Below, in pieces: positions 3,243 through 38,881 of a stretch of DNA of 64,000 nucleotides. The notes below the pieces were generated by a model. The model was not told the DNA's origin, did no database searches, and worked only from the letters and a program-made list of their open reading frames with translations. Origin of the DNA: Pyrinomonadaceae bacterium. Its GTDB lineage: Bacteria; Acidobacteriota; Blastocatellia; Pyrinomonadales; Pyrinomonadaceae. The stretch is from the NCBI GenBank assembly GCA_021228405.1, contig JAJQRF010000001.1:124001-188000 (forward strand), in the 5' to 3' direction. The position numbers and the translations under genes were made by a program. Position 1 is the stretch's first letter. Each line of letters starts with the position of its first letter.

Positions 3243-3324
3243 CCGTTTCTGCTTGATTATTTGGCTTGATTTTTGAAATTTAAGCGTTTTTCGGAGATTT
3301 CAAGAAAATAATTCACGAATTTCA

Positions 3325-3516
3325 GCTCAAATTAACCAATATTATCCAAAATTTCGGATTTCCATACTAAATCCTGAATTTTTATACTAAATTGTGGATT
3401 TCCACGCCAAATTGACACTTTTCATCCTAAATTTTGGATTTTCACGATATAATCGTCGATTTTCACTCCAAATTGACGCTTTTCACGCTAAATCGGCGAA
3501 TTTCACCTTTAAAAAG
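3325..3516. repeat. Degenerate 20-bp tandem array (about 9 units)
   Basis: Anchoring on a CTAAAT-like core gives hits near 3347, 3367, 3387, 3407, 3427, 3447, 3468, 3488 and 3508, a spacing of 20 bp with one 21-bp step. The consensus is roughly GATTTTCAC-N1-CTAAATTG. Some units are internally symmetric (GGATTT-N7-AAATCC). No convincing gene is present. It shares architecture, but not sequence, with the arrays at 11585 and 38520. Confidence 0.7.
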
Positions 3517-3522
3517 GCGATT

Positions 3523-3602
3523 GTCCGCGAAAGAGCGCGGAAAAACACGAAAATTAAGTCTTCATTATCAATTTTTCGTGTCTTTTCGCGTTTTTCGCGG
3601 AC
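3523..3602. repeat. Long imperfect hairpin
   Basis: An 80-bp imperfect inverted repeat. The outer 10 bp pair perfectly (GTCCGCGAAA at 3523-3532 with TTTCGCGGAC at 3593-3602), and the inner arms (CACGAAAA against TTTTTCGTG) pair with a few mismatches around a short AT-rich loop. It lies directly before the dispersed element at 3603. Confidence 0.65.
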
Positions 3603-10997: not shown

Positions 10998-11206
10998 TTG
11001 AGTATTAAACTTATCACAAAAATTACCTTCCTGCCACCGTCTTAGAAAAGCTTTCGGACTTGAGATTTGTTACTCAAAATATAAAAAATTATCTTTCAAA
11101 GCGGGAGCGGAAAGCCGCATATGCAGTAATTCCTTTCTTTTCTCCATATCCGGCATTATGCTACTTAAAACTACGCAAATTTTCGATTTTTGTTTACCCT
11201 GAATTA

Positions 11207-11575
11207 TCAGAAAGATAAGACTTTCAATAAATGCGACGGGCAAGTTTTACAATCCGACGAGCCGAATTTTGAAATGACCGCCTTCGCTCCGCTTTTCAAG
11301 AGATTTTGATTGTAGAAACACTCTTCTTTTTTTTCGGACGGATAAATTTCGACTTTGACAAGCCCGACCGAACAGTGCGCAAGAAGATAATCAATGTGCC
11401 AACGCAGTTTTTTCTCTTGGCTTTTGTGACGCGCCACGCGCCTTGAAAGATTTTTCATCGCGCTTCCCGTGTAAACGTAATTCCCTTTTGCAAATCTGCA
11501 AACGCCCAACGCGCCGATCTTCAAACTGATATTTTCCCTGATTTCTATTTTCAGTTGATAACAGCCCGAATCCAT
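11207..11575 (-). CDS. DUF123 (GIY-YIG-like) protein
   Basis: A 122-residue protein matching the DUF123 pattern: GVCRFAKGNYVYTGSAMKNL, then RRVARHKSQEKKLRWHIDYLL, then a Cys-rich end (CKTCPSHLL). DUF123 is related to GIY-YIG nucleases and in some bacteria is fused to endonuclease III, suggesting a nucleic-acid function. The ATG at 11575 is 10 bp from the first unit of the 21-bp array, and its only ribosome-site-like sequence (GGGAAG) is part of that array. Confidence 0.88.
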   Translation of the reverse strand: MDSGCYQLKIEIRENISLKIGALGVCRFAKGNYVYTGSAMKNLSRRVARHKSQEKKLRWHIDYLLAHCSVGLVKVEIYPSEKKEECFYNQNLLKSGAKAVISKFGSSDCKTCPSHLLKVLSF

Positions 11576-11584
11576 AAATTTATC

Positions 11585-11872
11585 TTCCCTAAATGAATTA
11601 GGGAGTTCCCTAATTCATTTAGGGAGCGCAAAAAATGATTTAGGGGCTTCCCTGAACGATTGCGAGAGTTCCCTGATTCATTTAGTGAAGCCACTGAACG
11701 ACAGCGAGAGTTCCCTGATTCGTTTAGGGAAGCCGCTAATTCATTTAGGGAACTCACTAATCTATCCGAAGAACTCACTAAATGATTTAGGGAACTCTCT
11801 GACTCATCAGGTGAAATCCCTAAATCATTTAGTGAAGTCCCTAATTCAATTAAAAAGTTCCCTGACATAGGC
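11585..11872. repeat. Quasi-palindromic 21-bp tandem array (13.7 units)
   Basis: Thirteen consecutive units of exactly 21 bp run from 11585 to 11857, followed by a partial fourteenth. The consensus TTCCCTAAT-N3-ATTTAGGGAA is itself close to a palindrome. Because 21 is a multiple of three, heptad-like open frames (SLNELGN-type) appear on both strands; I treat these as by-products. The array fills the gap between the DUF123 gene and the APC permease. Confidence 0.85.
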
Positions 11873-11911
11873 TGAAACGCGACTGCGCAGCAGATTCAAT
11901 CCAAAATCGCT

Positions 11912-13921
11912 TTAACCGCCGACGTGAACGCTCGGACGGATTTCGGGGTCGGGTTCCGCCTGACGCAGAATTTCGCGCGTCACGGGGGCGGTGTCGCCTT
12001 CGCCGAACAGGACGTAGCGAATCAGATACATAATTGGATTTCCCTCGCTCCAACCGAAATAAACGTGCGGAATTTTACCCGTCGTGTCGCGCAGATTCAT
12101 CAGCAGAGCCGCAATTGCGTTCGGCACGGCGGGAGCCTGCGTCCGCAGAATCTTGTAGCCTTCGATGTCGTAGCCGCGAATGTGCAGTTTTCCTTTGAAT
12201 TCGGAAGCATCGCCCGTTTCGATTTCGTAGAAAACGATCGGGTCGGTCGCCGGAATATGGTTGTCGATCCGTTTTTCGTGTTCCTTGAAGCGATACTCGG
12301 CAACGTCGCCCTGTTCGCGCCGGTTCGTCACGATGCGAATGTCGCCTTCGCTCAATTCATCCAGGATTTGACGCGCTTTGTCGTCGAATTCGATCTTGTC
12401 GATACGGATTTCGGTCGAACGCAATGCACGTGAAATAAATGAAGCCGCAATGATCGCAAAGATGAAAAACGAAGCGATCTTGATGCCGTCGGGACGTTCG
12501 ACGATATTCGTGATGGTCGTGTAAATAAAAACCACTGCGATCGCGCCGAATGCCCATTTCCAATTATTTTTCTGCCGCGAAGCCGAAAGCGTCACGGCAA
12601 CCGCCGCCGAACTCATCAGCACGAGAACGCCCGTTGCATATGCGCCGCCCTGCGCGTCAACGTCCGCCTGAAACCAGATCGTCACGGCAAAGCAGATGAT
12701 CGTGAAAACCATCGTGAGCGGTCGCGTCGCCCGCGCCCATTCGGGAGCCATCCCGTAGCGCGGCAGATAGCGCGGCACGATGTTTAGCAAACCCGCCATC
12801 GCCGACGCGCCCGCAAACCAGAGAATCAGAATGGTCGAAATATCGTAAAAAGTTCCGAAAACATTGCCGACCGTCGGGCTGAAAATCTCGCCGAATTTGT
12901 CGTGTGCGATATATGCCAGAGCGCGTCCGTTTGCCTTTCCTTTTTCCATTCCGCAAACACAAAACTGCGGAATTTCGTGAAGTCTTTCCTTATCTTCACA
13001 CGAAATCGCGGGACAAAATTCACGTTGGGGAATCAAAACGCTTGTGACGAAACTGCTCATCATAAGCATAAAGCTCATTATCACGGCGGCAGTTGTCAAT
13101 AATTTCCGCGTGTTGCCGATACGGTTCGGACTTTTGACGAGCGGCATTACCGCCACGCCCGTTTCAAATCCCGAAAGACCGAGCGCGAGCTTGGGGAAAA
13201 CGATCAATGCAAAACCGATCAGCAAAAAAACATTGCCGTTTGAGTTGCGATACGAAAATAATCCTGTTTTCCAATTGCTCAACAATTCGGGATGCGTGAA
13301 AACTTCATACATTCCGACAACCAGAACGACGACATTCATCATAAGATAAATCGCCACGAGAACGACGGCAATGCCGATCGCTTCCTTGAATCCTTTCAGA
13401 AAAACGATTCCCAAAACGGCGATCAAAACCAGCGTGACCCAGACCGGATGTTCGAGAAAATGCAGATTTCCCTGCACGAAAGGATTTTCGAGGATGTGCG
13501 CCGTCGCATCGGCGGCGGAAAGCGTGATCGTGATGACAAAATCGGTCGCGACGAATCCCAAAAGAACGAGCACGAAAAGTTTTCCGCGCCAGCGTGAGAG
13601 CAGATTTTCGAGCATCGCGATCGAACCTTCGCCGTGCGGACTTTCTTTCGCAACGCGGCTGTAGATCGGCAACGCGCCGAACAAAGTCAGCAAAACCAGA
13701 ATAAAGGTTGCGACCGGCGATAAAAAACTCGCCGCCAAAAACGCGATTCCGGGCTGATAACCGAGCGTCGAGAAATAATCAACGCCCGTCAGACACATCA
13801 CTTTCCACCAAGGATGCTGTTGGTGTCGGTGCTCTTTTTCGTAAGGTCCTTCGATTTCTTTGACCCCTTCGTAAAACCAATCCTTAAAACGGCTTCTCTT
13901 TTCAGTTTTATCGGTTTTCAT
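11912..13921 (-). CDS. APC-superfamily permease with soluble C-terminal domain
   Basis: A 669-residue integral membrane protein. An acidic/basic N-terminal segment of ~45 residues precedes a motif ([19 protein letters not shown]) like the first APC transmembrane helix, with the unwound glycine region; about twelve hydrophobic helices follow. The last ~170 residues are soluble and predicted cytosolic, beginning after a charged segment ([16 protein letters not shown]). They contain alternating beta/alpha elements and may be a regulatory domain. Substrate (amino acid or cation) cannot be read from the sequence. No clear ribosome site precedes the ATG at 13921, so the start is less certain. Confidence 0.8.
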
Positions 13922-37377: not shown

Positions 37378-38439
37378 ATGCGAAAAATCTTAATCATCAT
37401 TTCCGTTCTGGCAATTCTGTTAATTACTTCGTGCATCAACGCGCCGAACGAAGCGAACAATCAACCCGCGAAAAAAACGAACGGCAAAATCCGCATCGGT
37501 TTTTCGATGGACACGCTCAAGGAACACTGGGTAAAAGACAAGGAACTGGTCGAAAAACGCGCGGCTGAACTCGGCGCAGAGGTTATCGTCAATGTCGCCG
37601 AAGGCAACGACGAAAGGCAACTGAAACAAGTCGATGATTTTCTGACGCAGGGAATCGACGTTTTAATCATCGCACCGCACAACGGGAAAGTTGCCGCAAC
37701 TGCCGTCGAAGCCGCGAAAAAACAAGGCGTTCCCGTCGTCAGCTACGACCGCCTGGTTTTGAGCGATCAGATCGACGTTTTGGTTTCGCATCTTCATTCG
37801 CTTGCGGGAAAAATGCAGGCTGAATACGCTTTGAAAAATGCGCCGAAGGGAAATTATGTGATGATCTACGGCGCGCCGACCGACAACAACGCGCAGATTA
37901 TGAAACAGGCGCAACTCGAGGTTTTACAGCCGGCAATCGACCGCGGCGATATAAAAATCGTCGCCGACCAGCACGCGATCGACTGGTCGCCCGAAAATGC
38001 ACTAAAAATCGCCGAAAACGCGCTGACACAAAATCAAAACAATATCGTCGCGTTCGTTTGTTCCAACGACGGAACCGCCGGCGGCGCGATTCAGGCTTTG
38101 AAGAAACAAAATCTGATCGGGAAAGTCGTCGTGACGGGAATGGATGCGCAGATCGACGCGTTGCAAAGAATTGCCGAAGGCGAACAGAATATGACGGTTT
38201 ACAAACCGATTCAGCCGCTTGCCTTCGCCGCTGTCGAAGCCGCCGTCAGGCTCGCGAAAGGCGAAAAGCCCGACACGACCAAAACGATGAAAGCCGTCAA
38301 CAAGGAAGTTCCGTTCATTTTCATCGAACCGAAGGTCGTTGAAAAAGCAAATCTGATGGACATCGTGCGCGACGGCTACGAATCTTACGACAAGATTTTC
38401 GTCAACGTTCCCGCCGATCAAAGACCGAAAAAAGAATAG
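37378..38439 (+). CDS. Periplasmic sugar-binding lipoprotein, XylF/ribose-binding type
   Basis: A 353-residue type I periplasmic binding protein. The lipobox LITSC places the acylated Cys at residue 19. The XylF-like core includes RIGFSMDTLKEHWVKD, VDVLIIAPHNG and VVSYDRLVL; a D-xylose-type site is suggested by the family match. No ATPase or permease gene is adjacent: the gene is the last of the plus operon and is followed by the 21-bp array. It may serve a permease elsewhere, or act as a sensor for carbohydrate. Confidence 0.88.
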   Translation: MRKILIIISVLAILLITSCINAPNEANNQPAKKTNGKIRIGFSMDTLKEHWVKDKELVEKRAAELGAEVIVNVAEGNDERQLKQVDDFLTQGIDVLIIAPHNGKVAATAVEAAKKQGVPVVSYDRLVLSDQIDVLVSHLHSLAGKMQAEYALKNAPKGNYVMIYGAPTDNNAQIMKQAQLEVLQPAIDRGDIKIVADQHAIDWSPENALKIAENALTQNQNNIVAFVCSNDGTAGGAIQALKKQNLIGKVVVTGMDAQIDALQRIAEGEQNMTVYKPIQPLAFAAVEAAVRLAKGEKPDTTKTMKAVNKEVPFIFIEPKVVEKANLMDIVRDGYESYDKIFVNVPADQRPKKE

Positions 38440-38519: not shown

Positions 38520-38792
38520 GGAGTCTAGCTAGACTCCTGAGAGTTTTGCCAAAACTCCGACGAAAACTGCCGAAACTCCGAAGAGTTTTTGCACCGCTCT
38601 GAGGAAAGAAAGGAAGACTTTTTTCAATCCATCCAAACTTCTTCCGAGTCTTAACAAAACTCCGAAGAAATTCTTAAAAACTCCTTCGAGCGAACACGAA
38701 ACTCCTTTGAGTGAACGCTAAACTCTTTCCAAGATAAGGAAAACTCCGACGAATTTCTCTGCATTTCCGAAGAGTTTTTCAAACACTGAGCC
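38520..38792. repeat. Quasi-palindromic 21-bp tandem array (13 units)
   Basis: Thirteen contiguous units of exactly 21 bp, most starting GAG/GAA and ending in TCC plus 2-4 bases. Several are internally symmetric (GAGTTTT-GCC-AAAACTC; GGAGTCTAGCTAGACTCC). The sequence differs from the array at 11585 but length, period and unit number agree. Two looser units may precede it (38478-38519). It fills the gap between convergent alpha-glucan operons. Confidence 0.8.
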
Positions 38793-38798
38793 GAGCAA

Positions 38799-38881
38799 AA
38801 AAGTCCGTAGTCCAAAATCTCGAGTCCGGAGTCAAAAATAAATCTTACGACTTAGGACTTTGGGCTACGGGCTACGGACTT
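38799..38881. repeat. Imperfect hairpin at the end of the array
   Basis: AAAGTCCGTAG near 38800 pairs with CTACGGACTTT near 38872-38882, and internal AGTCC/GGACT pieces pair again. It lies between the array and the 3' end of the minus-strand GH13 gene and may terminate transcription. Confidence 0.45.

Follow-up and report, generated by a model that had tools for sequence, protein, structure and literature searches.

REP/BIME elements are palindromic and extragenic, belong to one sequence family across a genome, and are associated with Y1 (RAYT-type) transposases. A CRISPR array consists of identical repeats parted by unrelated spacers. PARCELs are described as coding tandem repeats of 25 residues, the DNA of which has dyad symmetry (PMC2996958), and a recent origin and rapid evolution are attributed to the tandem repeats of Borgs (PMC9879509, PMC12660748). 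The bacterial satellites of "constant size, variable sequence" described by Subirana and Messeguer include a class of 20–21 nt, for which the authors point to the correspondence with two turns of the helix without assigning a function (PMC8161180). Satellites of this class are reported there from Bacillus and, according to the authors, also from Cyanobacteria, Actinobacteria, and other groups. In the same account, most of the arrays in B. weihaiensis have a short species-specific motif in common, and a polymerising protein is suggested for the satellites. A class of 52 nt is described as transcribed in B. coagulans (PMC8625621).

We analysed a stretch of 64,000 nucleotides (the window) from a genome of 5.72 Mb in 20 contigs. 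It contains an array that looks like a member of the known 20–21-nt class of constant-size bacterial satellites.

The array in the window

The window array spans positions 11585–11872 (288 bases, no strand assigned) between two genes. It is composed of 13 full units of 21 bp (11585–11857) and a 15-nt remnant of a unit that extends to 11872, with the dyad-symmetric consensus TTCCCTAAATCATTTAGGGAA. All of the 12 measured spacings are exactly 21 bp, TRF gives 13.3 copies with a score of 204, and the identity autocorrelation is 0.59, 0.63, and 0.61 at lags of 21, 42, and 63, respectively, compared with 0.12–0.35 at all remaining lags between 5 and 64. The strict period of 13 contiguous units, claimed earlier by a model that saw the letters alone (the sequence-only reading), is thus confirmed. 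The higher-order periodicity at 42 and 63 bp points to block duplication. The units are contiguous and diverged with no unrelated spacers between them, and a CRISPR array is rejected, as had also been claimed.

The sequence-only reading described each unit as nearly its own reverse complement. In the phase used in that reading, 5.85 of 10 pairs are formed per unit, compared with 2.5 expected with equal base frequencies and no more than 3.85 in any of the 20 alternative phases, and none of 60 column-permuted versions is as good (z = 3.7). The dyad is therefore above chance, but the description overstates it, since the pairs in units 1–13 (8, 8, 5, 5, 7, 2, 7, 6, 2, 8, 4, 8, and 6) range unevenly from 2 to 8, two units having only 2 of 10. 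Units 1 and 2 (11585–11625, no strand assigned) are mutual reverse complements over 19 nt, forming an inverted pair with 100% identity, and for 5 of the 13 units the best match is another unit read as its reverse complement, every direct copy being less similar. Paired cells amount to 59 of 78, compared with 59.4 after shuffling, with no double changes, and the pattern of the columns is compatible with a neutral model of duplication and mutation (P = 0.35 for column variation and 0.82 for clustering). Selection on pairing, which the sequence-only reading had proposed, is therefore not supported in the window array taken alone. As RNA, the array forms long hairpins that each comprise several units, with a folding energy of −135.3 kcal/mol (z = −13.1 relative to dinucleotide shuffles, in which the repeats are not kept). 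An Rfam search of the window gave no match, and the DNA of the array, searched against its own genome, matches only itself.

A DUF123 gene (11207–11575, minus strand; PF01986, E = 4.8e-25), homologs of which are found in 4 of 118 other genomes of the family, lies on one side of the array. A 669-aa gene that looks like a permease by eye (11912–13921, minus strand) lies on the other, with its stop codon 39 bp from the array. The putative permease has no match in Pfam or NCBIfam and has orthologs in 33 of 39 relatives. The array is intergenic, in agreement with the earlier claim, though only 9 bp separate it from the start codon of the DUF123 gene and a frame of 105 aa (11551–11868, minus strand) is open across it. 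This frame was judged to be non-coding, since codon position 2 is the most variable (conservation of 0.82, 0.65, and 0.71 at the three positions); it has no Pfam match, and its NCBIfam matches are only far below the cut-off. Neither promoter-like nor terminator-like sites are found at 11100–12100, where shuffles average 1.3 and 1.4, respectively. The window contains two more arrays, neither assigned to a strand. One at 3309–3525 has a period of 20 (8 spacings of 20 and 2 of 21) and a different sequence, and lies between convergent genes. The other at 38636–38800 has a period of 21, is weaker, falls below the census threshold given below, and is flanked by convergent genes that end at 38439 (plus strand) and 38893 (minus strand).

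Arrays across the genome and its relatives

A census was taken over 40 stretches of the same genome and the window (844,841 bp in total) with relaxed TRF, clusters of at least 90 bp with scores of at least 100 being accepted. Among the 48 tandem clusters found, 30 have a period of 20 (n = 6) or 21 (n = 24), while each of the remaining 18 overlaps with an open frame. At these thresholds, no cluster was obtained from 840 kb of control sequence generated with a first-order Markov model. Three of the 30 clusters, two in a FliK-like gene and one in a tRNA-guanine transglycosylase (TGT) gene, were dropped as coding before spacings and contexts were counted, leaving 27 non-coding arrays (about 180 per genome by extrapolation), two of which overlap low-scoring short frames. 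The check proposed in the sequence-only reading, whether other intergenic regions carry 20–21-bp arrays with differing sequences, is thus positive. The 268 spacings in the 27 arrays are 19 (4), 20 (49), 21 (214), and 23 bp (1), so that 263 are 20 or 21 bp, and no pairwise similarity among the arrays is detected by blastn-short at E = 1e-3. The motif TTTTC/GAAAA recurs in 12 of the 27, the null maximum being 8. When the 268 intergenic regions with a length of 120 bp or more were surveyed independently by autocorrelation, 24 regions scored at least 0.65, and the best period is 20, 21, or 40–42 in 22 of them. The GC content is 0.39 in the arrays and 0.35 in other intergenic DNA. Curvature by phased A-tracts was rejected, the 10.5-bp A/T harmonic being not enriched (mean rank 0.58). 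A common function of the flanking genes is not borne out either: 7 of 10 proteins have a Pfam match, and the families are varied, with TPR domains in three.

Dyad symmetry is found in 12 of the 27 arrays at z ≥ 2.7 (column permutation), the other 15 falling below. When these 12 are pooled, 547 cells are paired, compared with 521.4 after shuffling of the 3′ letters, and 23 cells are double changes, compared with 10.6, an excess inflated by the duplication kinship of the units. Folded as RNA against column-permuted versions, the 12 arrays have a mean z of −5.4 and the other 15 a mean z of −0.8. A G-U bias on the sense strand is not significant (20 versus 13, P = 0.30; 10 versus 3 in the window array, P = 0.09). 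Compared with a neutral simulation in which blocks are duplicated and mutated, set up to match every array individually and used in place of a naive column test (mean z 3.3), the variable columns of the 27 arrays are more clustered (Fisher P = 5e-9), to which arrays mixing spacings of 20 and 21 could contribute, and the columns vary more (P = 0.001). The pooled covariation excess and the clustering of variable columns therefore argue for constraint in the array class, in which the core is conserved and the linker free; the window array by itself gives no such evidence.

The positions of the arrays relative to genes should be noted. Among intergenic regions of 200 bp or more, defined with a hexamer-trained gene caller, those with arrays number 9 of the 16 convergent, 14 of the 116 tandem, and none of the 54 divergent ones. 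An array lying at the edge of a sampled segment was given no context type. In the autocorrelation set (score of 0.55, best period of 19–22 or 40–43; 26 regions, including one with a best period of 22), the counts are 11 of 24, 15 of 184, and 0 of 60, respectively. Fisher tests on this set give P = 0.002 for divergent regions (0/60) against the rest (26/208) and P = 1e-5 for convergent against tandem regions, the convergent excess being partly built in, since arrays lengthen short convergent regions. As regards a possible replacement of intrinsic terminators by arrays, terminator-like hairpins are found at 5 of 18 convergent ends with arrays and 35 of 76 without, and at 2 of 12 and 53 of 291 tandem ends, respectively. 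Of the 9 Y1 transposase loci in this genome, 4 have an array of 21 or 22 bp at a distance of no more than 1.5 kb (L174:511-805, L175:1160-1363, L179:2395-2631, and L181:3027-3197; one of the four has a period of 22), where about 0.95 are expected (9 loci with a length of about 3.3 kb each, and 27 arrays in 845 kb). However, Y1 genes are found in 105 of 118 genomes of the family, and the Y1 transposase as the maker of the arrays is only a lead.

The TGT gene contains a 21-bp array in frame (L103:17253-17554; G000:C4 about 565,253-565,554), around which PF01702 is matched in two stretches. The array adds about 100 residues of LSDxEKQ-like heptads. Its family occupies four places in the genome with 75–79% identity to the query copy and is outside the set of 27 arrays. 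The TGT protein is matched in 23 of 24 relatives, and in all 23 the match breaks at the position of the array; judging from coordinates only, a gap of 27 bp parts the two halves in G005 and one of 3 bp in G013, compared with about 306 bp here. The array is thus present here and absent from 23 relatives, and arrays therefore arise or move within the lineage. It also follows from the TGT gene that arrays can be tolerated inside a protein. A further 21-bp array at L013:6275-6513 codes for heptads inside the FliK-like flagellar hook-length gene (PF02120).

The DNA of the window array has no match in 39 relatives. The sequence-only reading had taken the lack of such arrays at homologous sites in relatives as evidence against itself; none of 23 permease-ortholog loci, with flanks of up to 1.5 kb, contains a 20–21-bp array, which we read as lineage specificity. 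The same holds for seven named relative loci with longer flanks; these relatives, found via a neighbouring gene, are Acidobacteriota MAGs, two of the seven being labelled Pyrinomonadaceae. When the TRF census was extended to 106 relative loci, which overlap in part and total 1,555,012 bp, it gave 57 clusters, of which five have a period of 21: two in G058, a weak one in G021, and two that look coding (L132 and L135, judged by eye; L072 was dropped as a copy of L065). The arrays are thus lineage-specific, and most of the sampled relatives are without them.

G058 is the one relative with a comparable array set, and a larger sample of it (L117-L124 and L153-L172; 492,403 bp) contains further period-21 arrays with sequences of their own, three clusters (L154:5047, L164:1329, and L164:1851) being judged coding by eye. 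Among 38 intergenic regions of G058 with autocorrelation of at least 0.6, the best period is 14 in 16 (for example, L122:18726-18879) and 21, 41, or 42 in 13. The array class thus exists in a second genus, where it is not the sole periodic DNA. Arrays occur there in 4 of 40 convergent, 5 of 127 tandem, and 4 of 51 divergent regions, with poor gene calls (77.6% coding). For three of the four divergent regions, the strand of one flank is backed by Pfam (ClpX-like, L157:300-1502, minus; SnoaL, L117:4335-4718, plus; Y1, L157:10467-11096, minus), and for one convergent region (L158) both sides are. The 3′ bias is not reproduced, and the 3′ preference of the arrays is an observation in one genome. 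The Y1 gene at L157:10467-11096 has repeats on both sides. The G058 array at L117:3280-3514 has a core, AATTAGGG, that resembles the window array, though only 13-nt matches are found, possibly by coincidence.

Origin and possible roles of the arrays

We favour, with a probability of about 45%, the reading that the arrays are a lineage-specific satellite whose growth proceeds by two turns of the helix at a time and which survives where it is harmless, over a binding platform or an RNA element. The unit length, the independence from sequence, the lineage specificity, the avoidance of divergent regions in this genome, and the in-frame empty site are observed, whereas the copying step, its relation to the geometry of the helix, and tolerance as the reason for the placement are inferred. 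The satellite reading is preferred because nearly all spacings (263/268) are 20 or 21 bp, the 27 arrays are dissimilar, and the window array has neither a match in the 39 relatives nor a counterpart at the 23 ortholog loci. The TGT empty site, the four-place family, the 42- and 63-bp block periodicity, and the 5 of 13 units that resemble inverted copies also argue for it, as do the fit of the window array to the neutral model and the lineage-specific and variable nature described for published satellites of the same length (PMC8161180). The arrays would grow by copying at the DNA level, through slippage or repair synthesis, with a step fixed near two helix turns, presumably by a DNA-holding complex that reads one face of the helix. 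Existing arrays may occasionally seed new ones elsewhere, and survival in 3′ flanks, between convergent genes, and in protein loops would reflect tolerance. The dyad in 12 of the 27 arrays might arise if hairpin-prone units slip, or are copied inverted, more readily, and no function for the neighbouring genes would be required. The satellite reading explains the core-linker pattern and the convergent excess least well; pooled covariation exceeds the shuffled level, and the convergent excess, though partly built in, goes beyond what simple tolerance predicts. In addition, a period of 14 is the commonest in G058 (16/38), and the two-turn step is therefore not the sole step there.

The core-linker pattern of the class is among the evidence for a functional platform phased with the helix, which we consider possible but rather doubtful. 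A protein polymerising on DNA would read its shape or dyad and not a single sequence, binding a unit every two turns on the same side of the helix; as part of this explanation, the arrays might serve as two-way transcription barriers, supercoil sinks, or nucleoid anchors at the 3′ ends of genes. The unit period of two helical turns, the dyad in 12 arrays, and the absence from divergent regions together with the convergent excess point to such a platform, and a polymerising protein is what Subirana and Messeguer suggest (PMC8161180). However, 15 of the arrays are not dyad-symmetric, TTTTC is the only sequence that recurs, A/T phasing at 10.5 bp is not enriched, the array within TGT cannot work at a 3′ end, and the 3′ bias is limited to one genome. 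The folding results bear on a different explanation, in which the arrays are transcribed in 3′ RNA (here also in a 5′ leader) and their tandem or multi-unit hairpins stabilise, terminate, or regulate transcripts. The folding energy of the window array and, with repeats kept, that of the 12 dyad arrays agree with this, and satellites of the 52-nt class are described as transcribed (PMC8625621). Contrarily, the other 15 arrays on average fold no better than permuted ones, the G-U bias is not significant, the window array contains no compensatory change and has no Rfam match, and terminator-like hairpins are not clearly rarer at array ends; we therefore regard an RNA element as unlikely. A short heptad-repeat protein encoded on the minus strand of the window array was rejected as highly improbable. 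The frame is indeed open for 105 aa, and the heptads in TGT show that in-frame arrays are tolerable, but the variation at codon position 2 and the lack of credible family matches are against coding, and 6 of the 30 arrays have a period of 20, with which a repeat cannot be encoded. A further reading, which we also hold to be improbable, is that a lineage-specific protein or copying complex reads helix geometry, accepting core- or dyad-bearing units of any sequence every two turns, and spreads the arrays, which then insulate converging genes from each other in both directions. If so, geometry-read arrays would form a class of chromosomal element defined by spacing and independent of sequence.

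Comparison with known systems

The window array and its counterparts resemble REP/BIME elements in being palindromic and extragenic and in lying, as far as this genome is concerned, 3′ of genes. Unlike those elements, the arrays have no common sequence family; REP-family membership was rejected, since the window array matches only itself and the 27 arrays are dissimilar. Tandem repeats of 26 bp at L104:5693-5859 and L180:1176-1261, the former with the palindrome GGGCTTTGCCC, look like a separate REP-like family. As in Borgs, many arrays occur per genome, each with its own sequence, whereas no single constant unit length is apparent for Borg repeats from their descriptions (PMC9879509, PMC12660748) and the diverged units here are fixed at 20–21 bp. 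Dyad-symmetric tandem repeats are common to PARCELs, as described in PMC2996958, and the present arrays; the latter are of 21 bp and non-coding, and a PARCEL-type coding repeat of 75 nt was rejected for the window array in view of its 21-bp period and the absence of a coding signature.

The likeness to the 20–21-nt satellites as described in PMC8161180 is closer. It extends to the unit length, the lack of sequence conservation between arrays, the mostly non-coding and lineage-restricted nature, several arrays per genome, the two helical turns, and an unexplained function. In the present genome, the unit length is constant (263 of 268 spacings), and the sequences differ among the 27 arrays, with one four-place family besides, families being described in the published class as well. 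The arrays are mostly non-coding (27 of 30 outside strong coding frames, and the codon pattern of the window array), and 27 occur in 844,841 bp of this genome, compared with five period-21 clusters in 1,555,012 bp of relatives. A literature search for such arrays in Acidobacteria gave nothing on the subject, judging from titles, and words beginning with palindrom-, terminat-, and acidobacter-, as well as convergent, divergent, and intergenic, are absent from the main text of PMC8161180. Function and mechanism of the 20–21-nt and 52-nt satellites are left unexplained in the accounts in PMC8161180 and PMC8625621, respectively. An array-rich genome adds three handles, namely the absence from divergent regions, the conserved core with a free linker, and an in-frame array that marks an empty site, each of which opens either the copying mechanism or a role where genes converge to testing. 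Compared with the satellites as described in PMC8161180, the arrays here differ in their host, a member of Acidobacteriota, and add the dyad, the absence from regions between divergent genes, and the case of a conserved gene that contains an array in frame.
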